Positions 811 through 47,360 of a stretch of 64,000 nt of DNA are shown piece by piece. The notes beneath the pieces were generated by a model. It was not told the DNA's origin, ran no database searches, and was given only the letters and a program-made list of their open reading frames with translations. Position numbers and translations under genes: made by a program. Source of the DNA: Staphylococcus sp. Marseille-Q5304 (GTDB taxonomy: Bacteria; Bacillota; Bacilli; Staphylococcales; Staphylococcaceae); contig NZ_CALSFP010000001.1 of assembly GCF_943737015.1 (NCBI RefSeq), positions 930,001-994,000 on the forward strand, written 5' to 3'. Each line of letters starts with the position of its first letter. The first letter of the stretch is position 1.

Positions 811-1530
811 ATGGTTCAATATGAAGAAATGAGTTTATTTTATGATCAATTAACATTTGATCAACCATATGAATCATGGTTGGACATCGTAAACCATTTT
901 TCATTGAAAAAGTCATCAATATTAGATTTAGGTTGTGGAACCGGTAGTTTTACAACATTGTTAGAAAGCTTTGATGAGGTAACCGGTATGGATTTAAGCA
1001 TTGATATGTTATCCGTGGCAACTCAAAAATCTAATAACGTTAACTGGATAGAAGGTGACATGACTGAATTCAATCTCGACAAACAATTTGATGTAATTAC
1101 GATATTTTGTGATTCATTAAATTATTTGCCAAATGAAGATGATGTCATAGCAACATTCTATAATGTCTTCAAACATTTAGACCAAGAAGGTACATTTATG
1201 TTTGATGTACATACAGTTCATAAGATGAATACATTATTTAATAATCAAAGCTATATTGATGAGTCAGAAGATGTATTCTTAGCATGGGAAGCTGTTAGAG
1301 GTGAAGAACCTCTAAGTGTGTGGCATGACATGACGTTTTTTATTAACCAAAGTGAGCATAACTATAAACGTTTTGATGAATCGCATTACCAACGTACATT
1401 TACTGAAGCAAAATATAAAGAAATGCTTACTCGAGTAGGCTTTTCTAAAATAGATACATTTGTAGACTTTGAAATAGAACATCATGATGATAATGCAGCT
1501 GAGCGCTTATTTTTCATAGTTAGAAAATAA
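811..1530 (+). CDS. Class I SAM-dependent methyltransferase, YqeM type
   Basis: The 239-residue product has a Rossmann methyltransferase core. Motif I is ILDLGCGTGSF near residue 37, an acidic residue ends beta-2 (GMDLSIDML), and DVITIFCDSLNYL forms the motif IV region. It follows rsfS by two bases and has only a weak ribosome-binding site, which suggests translational coupling. It occupies the place of Bacillus yqeM, whose substrate is not established. I do not assign a substrate. It is the last gene before the hairpin that precedes comEA. Confidence 0.88.
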   Translation: MVQYEEMSLFYDQLTFDQPYESWLDIVNHFSLKKSSILDLGCGTGSFTTLLESFDEVTGMDLSIDMLSVATQKSNNVNWIEGDMTEFNLDKQFDVITIFCDSLNYLPNEDDVIATFYNVFKHLDQEGTFMFDVHTVHKMNTLFNNQSYIDESEDVFLAWEAVRGEEPLSVWHDMTFFINQSEHNYKRFDESHYQRTFTEAKYKEMLTRVGFSKIDTFVDFEIEHHDDNAAERLFFIVRK

Positions 1531-1541
1531 ATAAAGTAAAA

Positions 1542-1582
1542 GCACTTCTTTATACGTGTAATGTATAAAGGAGTGTTTTTTT
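1542..1582 (+). promoter_or_regulatory. Terminator-like hairpin enclosing the comEA ribosome-binding site
   Basis: Bases 1542-1555 pair with 1563-1576 (14 pairs, two of them G-T), leaving a 7-base loop. Seven T residues (1576-1582) follow and run straight into the comEA ATG at 1583. The 3' arm contains the only good Shine-Dalgarno for comEA (AAAGGAG, 1567-1573). The shape is that of an intrinsic terminator for the upstream yqeM group, and it would also hide the comEA ribosome-binding site in read-through RNA. The comGA leader at 46351-46387 is built the same way and shares TACGTGTA at the start of the loop. Pairing is seen; the regulatory role is inferred. Confidence 0.75.
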
Positions 1583-2305
1583 ATGCAACGATATTGGGAG
1601 AAGATTAAACCGTTTATTTTAAAGTATAAATTGATTATAGCTTTGAGTCTCACCTTAGTAATGATGTGTGCTTTATTAATATCTAGTTTGTTTAACTCTA
1701 ATCATGCTAGCTCTGAACCTCTAAAAACGGATGAATTTAATTTGAATCAAACCCCGTCTTTAGCATCATCGACGAACGAATTGTCTGCACAACAAAATAA
1801 ACATACGCCAAAACAGCCTCAAACTGAATCGCAAAGTACAAATGATTTTATTTATGTTGATATAAAAGGGGCAGTAAAAAAACCAGACGTCTATAAAATG
1901 AAAGCAACGGACCGAATTAAACAACTTTTAGCGAAAGCCCAAGCCAAAAGTAATGCTGATTTAAGTCAAGTGAATCTTGCTGAAAAACTTATGGATCAAA
2001 AACTCGTCTATATTCCTAAGAAAGGAGAACAAAGTAATCAAATAAGTGGAAATATTGATGGTCATCAAGAAGATGTGGCTGCTACTAGTAATGTTTCTAA
2101 ATCTGAAAACAGTGAAACAATAAACTTAAATAATGCAACAGAATCTGATTTAATGAAAGTTCCTGGTATCGGACCAGTAAAAGCACAAGCGATAATAGAA
2201 TATAGAGACAACGAAGGCAGTTTTAATTCTGTAGATCAACTAACTGAAATAAGAGGTATTGGTGAGAAGACATTAGAAAAATTACGAGACTATTTCACAG
2301 TTTAG
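1583..2305 (+). CDS. comEA: Competence DNA receptor ComEA
   Basis: This 240-residue protein has one N-terminal membrane anchor (about residues 17-37, LIIALSLTLVMMCALLI), then a polar Ser/Gln-rich linker. A SLBB-like beta domain follows (YVDIKGAVKKPDVYKM near 91). Two helix-hairpin-helix DNA-binding motifs lie at the C-terminus (INLNNATESDLMKVPGIGP and LTEIRGIGEKTLEKL). ComEA binds incoming double-stranded DNA outside the membrane and passes it to ComEC. It heads the comE operon, and its ribosome-binding site lies inside the hairpin just upstream. Confidence 0.95.
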   Translation: MQRYWEKIKPFILKYKLIIALSLTLVMMCALLISSLFNSNHASSEPLKTDEFNLNQTPSLASSTNELSAQQNKHTPKQPQTESQSTNDFIYVDIKGAVKKPDVYKMKATDRIKQLLAKAQAKSNADLSQVNLAEKLMDQKLVYIPKKGEQSNQISGNIDGHQEDVAATSNVSKSENSETINLNNATESDLMKVPGIGPVKAQAIIEYRDNEGSFNSVDQLTEIRGIGEKTLEKLRDYFTV

Positions 2306-45384: not shown

Positions 45385-45710
45385 TGGCAATTGTAGACGT
45401 AGTTGTAATTCCAGTAGGTACTGAAGGTCCAAGTGTTAGTCAGTATATTGCAGAAATTCAAACAAAGTTAAAGGAATATAAAGCAGAAGGTAAAATTGAT
45501 TATCAACTTACACCTATGAACACGTTAATTGAAGGGGATTTAAAGGATTTATTCGAAGTGGTACAAGCAATTCATGAGTTACCATTCAATAAAGGACTTG
45601 ACCGTGTATGCACAAATATTAGAATTGATGATAGACGTGATAAATCTCGTAAAATGGATGATAAAATTCAAGCAGTAGAAAGTCATTTAAATAAAGGTGT
45701 AGATAAATAA
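45384..45710 (+). CDS. MTH1187 family thiamine-binding protein (YqgV type)
   Basis: The 108-residue protein has the family start AIVDVVVIPVGTEGPSVSQYIAEI and a single ferredoxin-like fold, with YQLTPMNTLIEGDL in the middle. Some family members bind thiamine. It overlaps glk by one base and the next gene by one base, so all three are translationally coupled. Ligand is inferred from the family. Confidence 0.85.
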   Translation: MAIVDVVVIPVGTEGPSVSQYIAEIQTKLKEYKAEGKIDYQLTPMNTLIEGDLKDLFEVVQAIHELPFNKGLDRVCTNIRIDDRRDKSRKMDDKIQAVESHLNKGVDK

Positions 45711-46333
45711 TGAGAATTTCAAAATTAACATTAGGTATTGCAGATACAAATACGTATTTTATAGAAAATGATCAAGATTTAATTATAGTTGATCCTGCGA
45801 GTGACAGCGATTTAATCATTAAAAAGGTCAATCAAATTAATAAACCGGTAAAAGCAATTTTATTAACACATGCACACTTCGACCACATCGGTGCACTGGA
45901 TGATATTGCTCAGCATTATGATGTGCCAGTTTATATGCATCGTGAGGAATTCGATTTCTTAACAGACCCAGAGAAAAATGGATCGGCTAAATTGGTTCCA
46001 CGTGGCTTTGAAAAAGTAACTAGCCAAGTTCAACCAAAGCCTTTAGATGAAGGGAATACTGAAATTGAAGGTTTCAAATTTAAAGTACTTCATACGCCAG
46101 GTCATTCACCAGGAAGTTTAACTTATGTATTTGACGATTTTGCAGTTGTCGGTGATACTTTATTTAAACAAGGTATTGGGCGTACAGACTTATACAAAAG
46201 TGATTACGAAACTTTAATTGATTCAATTAAAGATAAACTATTTGAACTTGAAGACGATTTGCCATTATTCCCAGGCCATGGTGAATATACTACAGCGGCA
46301 GAAGAAGAAAACAATCCTTTTATAAATGGATAA
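45710..46333 (+). CDS. Metallo-beta-lactamase fold hydrolase (YqgX type)
   Basis: The 207-residue protein has the metal motif LLTHAHFDHIGAL near residue 51, further His and Asp ligands in HTPGHSPGSL and VGDTLFKQGIGRTDL, and a final PGHGEYTT. It belongs to the glyoxalase II-like branch; hydrolysis of a glutathione or bacillithiol thioester is possible but unproven. It overlaps the thiamine-binding gene. The hairpin before comGA can act as its terminator. Confidence 0.9.
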   Translation: MRISKLTLGIADTNTYFIENDQDLIIVDPASDSDLIIKKVNQINKPVKAILLTHAHFDHIGALDDIAQHYDVPVYMHREEFDFLTDPEKNGSAKLVPRGFEKVTSQVQPKPLDEGNTEIEGFKFKVLHTPGHSPGSLTYVFDDFAVVGDTLFKQGIGRTDLYKSDYETLIDSIKDKLFELEDDLPLFPGHGEYTTAAEEENNPFING

Positions 46334-46350
46334 ATTAAAGTAAAACAACG

Positions 46351-46387
46351 ACCTCCTACGTGTATATATGTAGGAGGTGATTTTTTT
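46351..46387 (+). promoter_or_regulatory. Terminator-like hairpin enclosing the comGA ribosome-binding site
   Basis: ACCTCCTAC (46351-46359) pairs perfectly with GTAGGAGGT (46370-46378) around a 10-base loop. Seven T residues follow (46381-46387) and run into the TTG start at 46386. The 3' arm is the full Shine-Dalgarno of comGA. The element lies 18 bases after the preceding gene, so it can end that transcript and also close the comGA start in read-through RNA. It mirrors the comEA leader at 1542-1582, including TACGTGTA across the arm-loop junction. Confidence 0.8.
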
Positions 46388-47360
46388 GAAACAGTTGTTT
46401 CGTAATATAATTAATAAAGCCATTGAACAAGAAGCGAGTGATATTCATTTTATCCCGTCAGAACAAGAGGTCGCGCTCAAATTTCGTGTAAATGACCAGT
46501 TTATTGATGTAGAGACGATACAATTACAGCTTTATAAGAAATTATTAACCTTTATGAAATATCAAGCTGGTTTAGATGTTTCAAATCATAACAGTGCCCA
46601 AAGTGGTAGACACTTGTATAAATTAAAGCAATTGTATTTTTTACGTATATCAACGTTACCTTTGTCACTTGGAAATGAAAGTTGTGTTATCCGCATTATT
46701 CCCCAATATTTTCAAAAGCAAAGCCAAGTAAATAATATTGATAATTTATACCGGTTAATGAATAAGAAACAAGGATTGATATTATTTAGTGGGCCTACTG
46801 GATCAGGTAAGAGCACTTTAATGTATAACATGGTATTGTATGCGAAAGAACATTTAAATCTCAATATCATAACTGTAGAAGATCCTGTTGAAAGACTAGT
46901 GAAAGGCATAACTCAAATTTCAATAAATGAAAAGGCAGGGATTAATTATGCTTCTTCATTTAAAGCGATATTAAGGTGTGATCCCGATGTGATTTTAATT
47001 GGTGAAATAAGAGATGCTTCAATTGCTAAATATGTTATCCAAGCTAGTCTTAGCGGTCACCTCGTTTTATCTACCTTACATTCCAGTGATTGTAAAGGAG
47101 CATTGTTAAGATTATTAGAAATGGGAATCAGTAAACAAGAAATATGCCAATCTATTATAAGCATGCTTAGTCAACGTTTAGTAACAACATCTGATCAACA
47201 AAGAAAATTAATTTATGAGCATCTCACAAAGAATGATATTAAATACTTCTTCGATAATGGTTTATCATTACCTAATGATTTTCAAAACTTAACATATTAC
47301 CTAAAACAAATGTCGAAGGAGGGAGTGATTTGTGAATCAACGATTGAAAGATATTTATAA
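46386..47360 (+). CDS. comGA: Competence pseudopilus ATPase ComGA
   Basis: The 324-residue traffic ATPase has an N-terminal domain (EASDIHFIPSEQEVALKFRVND, SAQSGRHLY), Walker A GPTGSGKST near residue 135, an Asp box (IITVEDPVE), Walker B (CDPDVILIGEIRD) and a His box (GHLVLSTLHS). It powers assembly of the pseudopilus that brings DNA to ComEA. TAGGAGGTGA precedes a TTG at 46386; a GTG at 46377 lies inside the ribosome-binding site and is rejected. Confidence 0.94.
   Translation: MKQLFRNIINKAIEQEASDIHFIPSEQEVALKFRVNDQFIDVETIQLQLYKKLLTFMKYQAGLDVSNHNSAQSGRHLYKLKQLYFLRISTLPLSLGNESCVIRIIPQYFQKQSQVNNIDNLYRLMNKKQGLILFSGPTGSGKSTLMYNMVLYAKEHLNLNIITVEDPVERLVKGITQISINEKAGINYASSFKAILRCDPDVILIGEIRDASIAKYVIQASLSGHLVLSTLHSSDCKGALLRLLEMGISKQEICQSIISMLSQRLVTTSDQQRKLIYEHLTKNDIKYFFDNGLSLPNDFQNLTYYLKQMSKEGVICESTIERYL

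Follow-up and report, generated by a model that had tools for sequence, protein, structure and literature searches.

How the staphylococcal competence genes stay silent until the alternative sigma factor SigH has been made is a live question, and the window analysed here (the whole 64,000-nucleotide stretch from Staphylococcus sp. Marseille-Q5304) puts it in a concrete form: both late-competence operons, comE and comG, have another gene, read in the same direction, ending a few bases ahead of them, and the ribosome-binding site of each is enclosed in a hairpin that runs into a row of T residues. Which RNA carries such a hairpin, and what would it do there?

Results

In the window comGA (46386..47360, forward strand like all features given below; above the cut-off of NCBIfam model NF041000, ATPase_ComGA) lies downstream of a co-directional gene for a metallo-beta-lactamase-fold hydrolase (45710..46333), whose stop is 3 nt ahead of a SigH-type -35 half, the nonamer AAAGTAAAA (46337..46345). 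There follow the 5' or anti-Shine-Dalgarno arm of the hairpin, ACCTCCTAC (46351..46359), which sits in the promoter spacer and extends into a SigH-type -10 half, TACGTGT (46357..46363), at the arm-loop junction; the 3' arm, GTAGGAGGT (46370..46378); and a T7 run resembling a terminator tail (46381..46387), the final two letters of which already belong to the TTG start codon (46386-46388). An earlier reading of the same DNA, made from its letters (hereafter the sequence-only reading), had described a perfect 9-bp hairpin holding the whole comGA Shine-Dalgarno (SD) sequence and followed by seven T residues entering TTG. The perfect 9-bp pairing of the two arms, the T-run and the start codon are indeed there, but "whole" is slightly too strong: the SD, AGGAGGT, lies mostly within the stem, and the GA just 3' of it falls outside. 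The folding z-score of this hairpin is -4.4, with 0 of 200 shuffles equally stable, and a simple terminator scan flagged the site.

The comE leader is built alike. The comEA product (1583..2305) scored above the cut-off of NCBIfam TIGR00426, and matched the comE model TIGR01259 with E=3e-34, yet under the cut-off of that model. Its upstream neighbour, a co-directional methyltransferase gene (811..1530), stops 2 nt ahead of the comE -35 half, which is again AAAGTAAAA (1533..1541). The 5' arm (1543..1555) occupies the promoter spacer and extends into the -10 half TACGTGT (1553..1559), the 3' arm (1563..1575) contains the comEA SD AAAGGAG (1567-1573), and a T7 run (1576..1582) stands directly ahead of the ATG at 1583. 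The stem counts 13 bp, including one T.G pair, and has a folding z-score of -8.2 (0 of 200 shuffles equally stable); the simple terminator scan did not flag it in the window, perhaps because the stem is able to extend into the T-run.

The two leaders thus have the same design at a distance of 44.8 kb, which bears out the earlier claim of one design shared some 45 kb apart. Among the 53 window genes, defined as frames of at least 100 aa with an SD of at least 5 nt, comEA and comGA are the only ones to combine a minimum free energy of -12 or lower, an SD with 60% or more of its bases paired, and a T-run of at least 5; such a T-run before the start codon occurs in 4 of the 53, these two included. 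A search of Rfam with the 301-base stretches round each site returned nothing above gathering score, the single microRNA-family match of each lying far below it.

The octamer TACGTGTA, which the sequence-only reading had found common to both arm-loop junctions, is present there as described (46357-46364 for comG, 1553-1560 for comE). It has 5 copies in the window against 1.2 expected, and genome-wide it occurs 90 times against 92 for the reversed string, i.e. at chance frequency, which rules it out as a genome-wide signal by itself. It is, however, one half of a two-part motif, AAAGTAAAA-N11-TACGTGT, whose other half, an identical nonamer exactly 11 nt 5' of TACGTGT at both operons, was absent from the earlier account. 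The pattern AGTAAAAN{10,13}ACGTGTA has 2 matches in the 2.28 Mb genome, those of comG and comE, and its reversed control has none. Further members of the motif in the same genome were sought and rejected, a looser promoter pattern giving 5 matches (two of them the com sites) against 3 for its reversed form. The strict pattern has matches in 57 of 84 genomes; since its reversed controls are also matched in many genomes, this count was not used as evidence. As a separate observation, AGTAAAAAAGGTTATGTNCGTGTA recurs in several Staphylococcus genomes (e.g. G000:C1:1610393-1610416), where it is probably coding sequence and not a promoter.

Conservation of the two halves was examined in 83 comG and 83 comE leaders of Staphylococcus; genome G063 had no ComGA match, and the comE of G055 gave no start. 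When the spacing was free to vary from 9 to 13, N11 came out best in 83/83 comG and 82/83 comE leaders, and the sole exception, the comE leader of G039, stems from a miscalled start and also shows N11; in the comG leader of G014 the best-scoring register is not the evident one, both being N11. A motif score of at least 12 of 16 was reached by 164 of the 166 leaders as compared with 3.7% of 3320 shuffles, and one of at least 14 by 99 leaders as compared with 0.03%, the consensus having been derived from the window, whose own two sites necessarily reach the maximum. TACGTGT or TACGTTT is found in 95/166 leaders and near variants in the others, and the -10 ends 21-25 nt ahead of the start codon in 80/83 comG and 70/83 comE leaders.

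These features recall known SigH promoters. In Listeria, those of comGA, comEA and four other genes consist of a 9-mer, 11 nt and a 7-mer, and lie 19 nt from comGA and 22 nt from comEA; the -35 of comGA reads AAAGGATTT and the -10 takes forms of GNNGAAT (PMC4754846). S. aureus comG and comE are transcribed by SigH (PMC3486894), with the aid of ComK (PMC9072672), and at comG ComK1 acts together with SigH (PMC10182052). On the other side, the GAAT core of the Listeria -10 is absent from TACGTGT, the two halves are not visible by eye in the conserved sequence printed for the int promoter of S. aureus prophages, which depends on SigH (PMC2869324), and a genome-wide S. aureus study was unable to assign any SigH sites, the sigH of the strain used being cryptic under standard conditions (PMC4818034). 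The two-part N11 motif, the Listeria geometry and the use of SigH at comG and comE in S. aureus make a SigH -10 element the most likely identity of the octamer, with the 5' arm of the hairpin lying in the promoter spacer; SigH would then be the acting factor in Marseille-Q5304. The earlier suggestion that the octamer could be part of a promoter overlapping the RNA structure was therefore probably right.

The hairpins are conserved along with the promoter. The sequence-only reading had named as refutation an octamer at chance frequency together with hairpins not conserved in other staphylococci; the first was found for the octamer alone, as seen above, whereas an SD-masking hairpin is kept in 83/83 comG and 82/83 comE leaders. 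When an immediate T-run is required as well, as for a terminator, the counts are 82/83 and 77/83, at least three of the six comE failures being due to a doubtful start (G011, G030, G039), and a T-run of at least 4 follows in 159/166 leaders; the species are related, so that these leader counts are not independent. The single comG leader without a T-run of 4 belongs to G002 (L157). This is one of six genomes (G002, G019, G022, G036, G051 and G068, four of them recognized by eye only) that possess a separate terminator-like hairpin upstream of comG and still retain the comG hairpin. Those separate hairpins sit between the hydrolase gene and comG (L149, L151, L153, L155, L157, L159); one upstream of comG in G007 falls within the upstream frame and was not counted.

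Pairing of the arms was assessed in alignments from which identical rows had been merged, leaving 76 distinct comG and 72 distinct comE leaders, with L193, L208, L143 and L207 (that of G039) left out. For comG 96.4% of the cells are paired, falling to 36-57% when the partners are slid, and two-sided cells number 49 against 17.5 in shuffles. The corresponding comE values are 81.2%, 40-52% and 101 against 37.4, the first being an underestimate, since MAFFT misplaces the 3' arm in some comE rows. Two other measures, how many pairs show a two-sided change at all and how many further pair types occur, did not exceed the shuffles for either leader. When the 84 genomes were searched at E <= 0.02 with a covariance model of the 72 distinct comE leaders, themselves taken from these genomes, 100 matches resulted, i.e. 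84 comE sites, 15 comG sites and one comE site on the reverse strand; the model recovered no third hairpin site in the genus, under strict filters that may lose weak sites (69 genomes were without a comG match).

Comparison with 24 genomes of four other genera of the family separates the two operons; comG leaders were obtained from 20 of them and upstream contexts from 20, with 17 genomes in both sets and G100 in neither. A hairpin with T-run precedes comE in 24/24 of these genomes at a loose threshold, the case of G103 not being clean, although stem and -10 are altered. In front of comG the combination is found in 0/20 leaders, the T-run itself in 0/20, and 19/20 have no such hairpin, the exception being G105 (L246), where the SD is masked (-10.8 kcal/mol) without a T-run; a similar element, in CGTTTA or CGAT forms in most, stands ahead of the SD. 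The genomic surroundings differ accordingly: going upstream from comG, the first long frame is met on the opposite strand in 20/20 related-genus genomes, with a terminator-like hairpin beyond, and on the same strand in 24/24 and 30/30 Staphylococcus loci of two sets. In 82/83 Staphylococcus comE leaders the stop of the preceding gene is positioned at -15 to +2 nt relative to the -35, which leaves little room for another comE promoter. Since comG lacks hairpin and T-run where the upstream frame opposes it and comE keeps both, the hairpin tracks oncoming transcription rather than SigH control as such, in a contrast between genera that, the genomes being related, amounts to one or two events and not dozens, the Fisher value ignoring kinship. 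Outside the family, 0/15 comGA leaders (50 nt before starts that were called automatically and are in part doubtful) fold at -12 kcal/mol or better. A further observation concerns the comE of G103 (L252), which has an opposite-strand frame just upstream; its usual 5' arm and -35 are gone, its 3' arm and T-run are kept, and the rearrangement looks like an insertion.

The layout bears on which RNA can contain the hairpin. With the -35 half ahead of the 5' arm and the -10 half where this arm meets the loop, promoter geometry would place the start of a SigH transcript at the 3' arm or slightly ahead of it, and the hairpin, if this start is right, would be confined to RNA arriving from upstream; at comG, the distance to the -10 would put the +1 at about 46370-46372. 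If +1 is assumed to be the 8th base 3' of the -10, or the SD where this is reached earlier, the SigH leader has a median length of 15 nt for comG and 16 nt for comE. Folding predicts that the unpaired probability of the SD would rise from 0.07 in read-through RNA to 0.51 in RNA from the assumed +1 for comG (up in 80/82 leaders), and from 0.06 to 0.55 for comE (up in 78/80); these counts omit L193 and L208 (comE), L143 (comG) and L207 (G039), whose start or register is doubtful. The idea of the sequence-only reading that the hairpin is the leader of the competence transcript finds no support here, the promoter halves flanking and entering the 5' arm.

Discussion

We consider it likely that each of the two operons opens with a compact element of about 50 bases, in which SigH promoter, intrinsic terminator and ribosome-binding site are overlaid. 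Polymerase arriving from the upstream gene would copy the entire inverted repeat, and the read-through RNA would fold into a hairpin followed by U residues and terminate there, while in any RNA passing the terminator the SD would be paired and hence masked. SigH polymerase, on the other hand, would bind AAAGTAAAA before the repeat and TACGTGT inside it, and initiate at the 3' arm or slightly ahead of it; the resulting RNA, with a leader of some 15 nt and no 5' arm, would form no hairpin and leave the SD open, so that competence proteins would be made only from SigH-initiated RNA. From the observed arrangement we infer the role of SigH in this species, the exact start, termination and the masking of translation. 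In its full extent the model describes a terminator-embedded promoter, where the initiating sigma factor decides whether the terminator is present in the RNA, giving a double lock on elongation and translation that guards the DNA uptake genes from leaky expression; such a device would be family-wide at comE and, at comG, a gain of Staphylococcus (or a loss in its relatives) that follows the co-directional upstream gene. We regard this wider proposal as somewhat more probable than not.

A narrower form of the same reading, which we regard as rather unlikely though worth serious attention, retains the masking of the SD in read-through RNA and dispenses with termination. It has a precedent in phage T4 gene e (PMC3014915), it has been proposed for the read-through RNA of B. 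subtilis sigG (PMC5942855), and the persistence of the comG hairpin in the six genomes with a separate upstream terminator-like hairpin fits it. The T-run, however, goes together with the hairpin, being at least 4 T long in nearly all Staphylococcus leaders (159/166) and present in all 24 comE leaders of the related genera, and missing from their 20 comG leaders; in addition, just 4 of the 53 window genes have at least 5 T at this place, and two of them are comEA and comGA.

The leaning of the sequence-only reading was towards a hairpin belonging to the SigH transcript itself, as a leader attenuator or as an SD switch opened by some factor or condition. An SD within a hairpin followed by a T-run is what such a leader would look like, and the 5' UTR of S. 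aureus sigH contains an SD-masking repeat that keeps its expression low (PMC3486894); we nevertheless judge this improbable: the 5' arm is flanked and entered by the conserved promoter halves, the comE upstream stop is close to the -35 (-15 to +2 nt) in 82/83 leaders, and comG of the related genera, with a similar element ahead of its SD, has no hairpin with T-run. Still less credit, to the point of being very improbable, is given to the inverted repeat as a DNA operator of a dimeric regulator such as ComK, with RNA pairing as a by-product: although ComK1 works with SigH on S. aureus comG (PMC10182052), the stem varies in its letters and yet remains paired, in part through G.U pairs, which destroy the palindrome in the DNA, the hairpin is linked to the T-run, and the comG hairpin is absent in 19/20 related-genus leaders. 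A chance likeness of two leaders in an AT-rich genome, with which the chance frequency of the octamer alone would agree, has practically no probability left, being already refuted by the genus-wide conservation, the covariation and the fixed spacing.

Coming back to the overlay of promoter, terminator and ribosome site, its parts have known counterparts. In T4, the long early RNA of gene e (lysozyme) and of I-TevI masks the SD in a hairpin, and the late-promoter RNA, lacking the 5' strand, is translated (PMC3014915); this is the same start-dependent masking of the SD as proposed for comG and comE, but it relies on late promoters, and a T-run terminator is not mentioned in the portion used, whereas comG and comE are chromosomal operons with a SigH-type promoter and a T-run. 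In B. subtilis a large hairpin is predicted to block translation of sigG from spoIIG read-through RNA and cannot form in RNA from PsigG (PMC5942855); sigG is a sporulation gene with a sigma F/G promoter, and neither a terminator nor a -10 in the loop, both features of comG and comE, is described in the portion used. The Listeria comGA and comEA promoters share the 9-mer/11 nt/7-mer geometry with the staphylococcal ones and differ in their letters (a -35 such as AAAGGATTT and a -10 GNNGAAT, versus AAAGTAAAA and TACGTGT; PMC4754846). What appears to be new is that SD masking is combined with a terminator tail and with a loop containing the -10 of an alternative sigma factor, in two competence operons of which one has kept the combination throughout the family; among open-licence papers we found no description of such a fused element.

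If this holds true, operons starting a few bases after another gene would be kept off without a repressor, and the element would constitute a compact natural part in which the same sequence is a terminator for some polymerases and a promoter for others. Reporter fusions that cut the 5' arm could then mislead, and so could models that assign the hairpin to the competence mRNA. For testing, we offer the genus-wide promoter pattern AAAGTAA[AT][AT]-N11-TACGT[GT]T.

Finally, the S. aureus sigH 5' UTR, with its SD-masking inverted repeat, belongs to the same regulatory circuit (PMC3486894), and the putative sigH of the window's genome (L228) likewise has an inverted repeat over its SD, with a bulge and with the ATG directly after. 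It is ruled out as a third member of the comE/comG type, lacking both the T-run and a SigH-type -10 in its loop. Because this gene has an SD-masking repeat of its own, masking hairpins in the competence circuit can act in regulation in addition to providing insulation.
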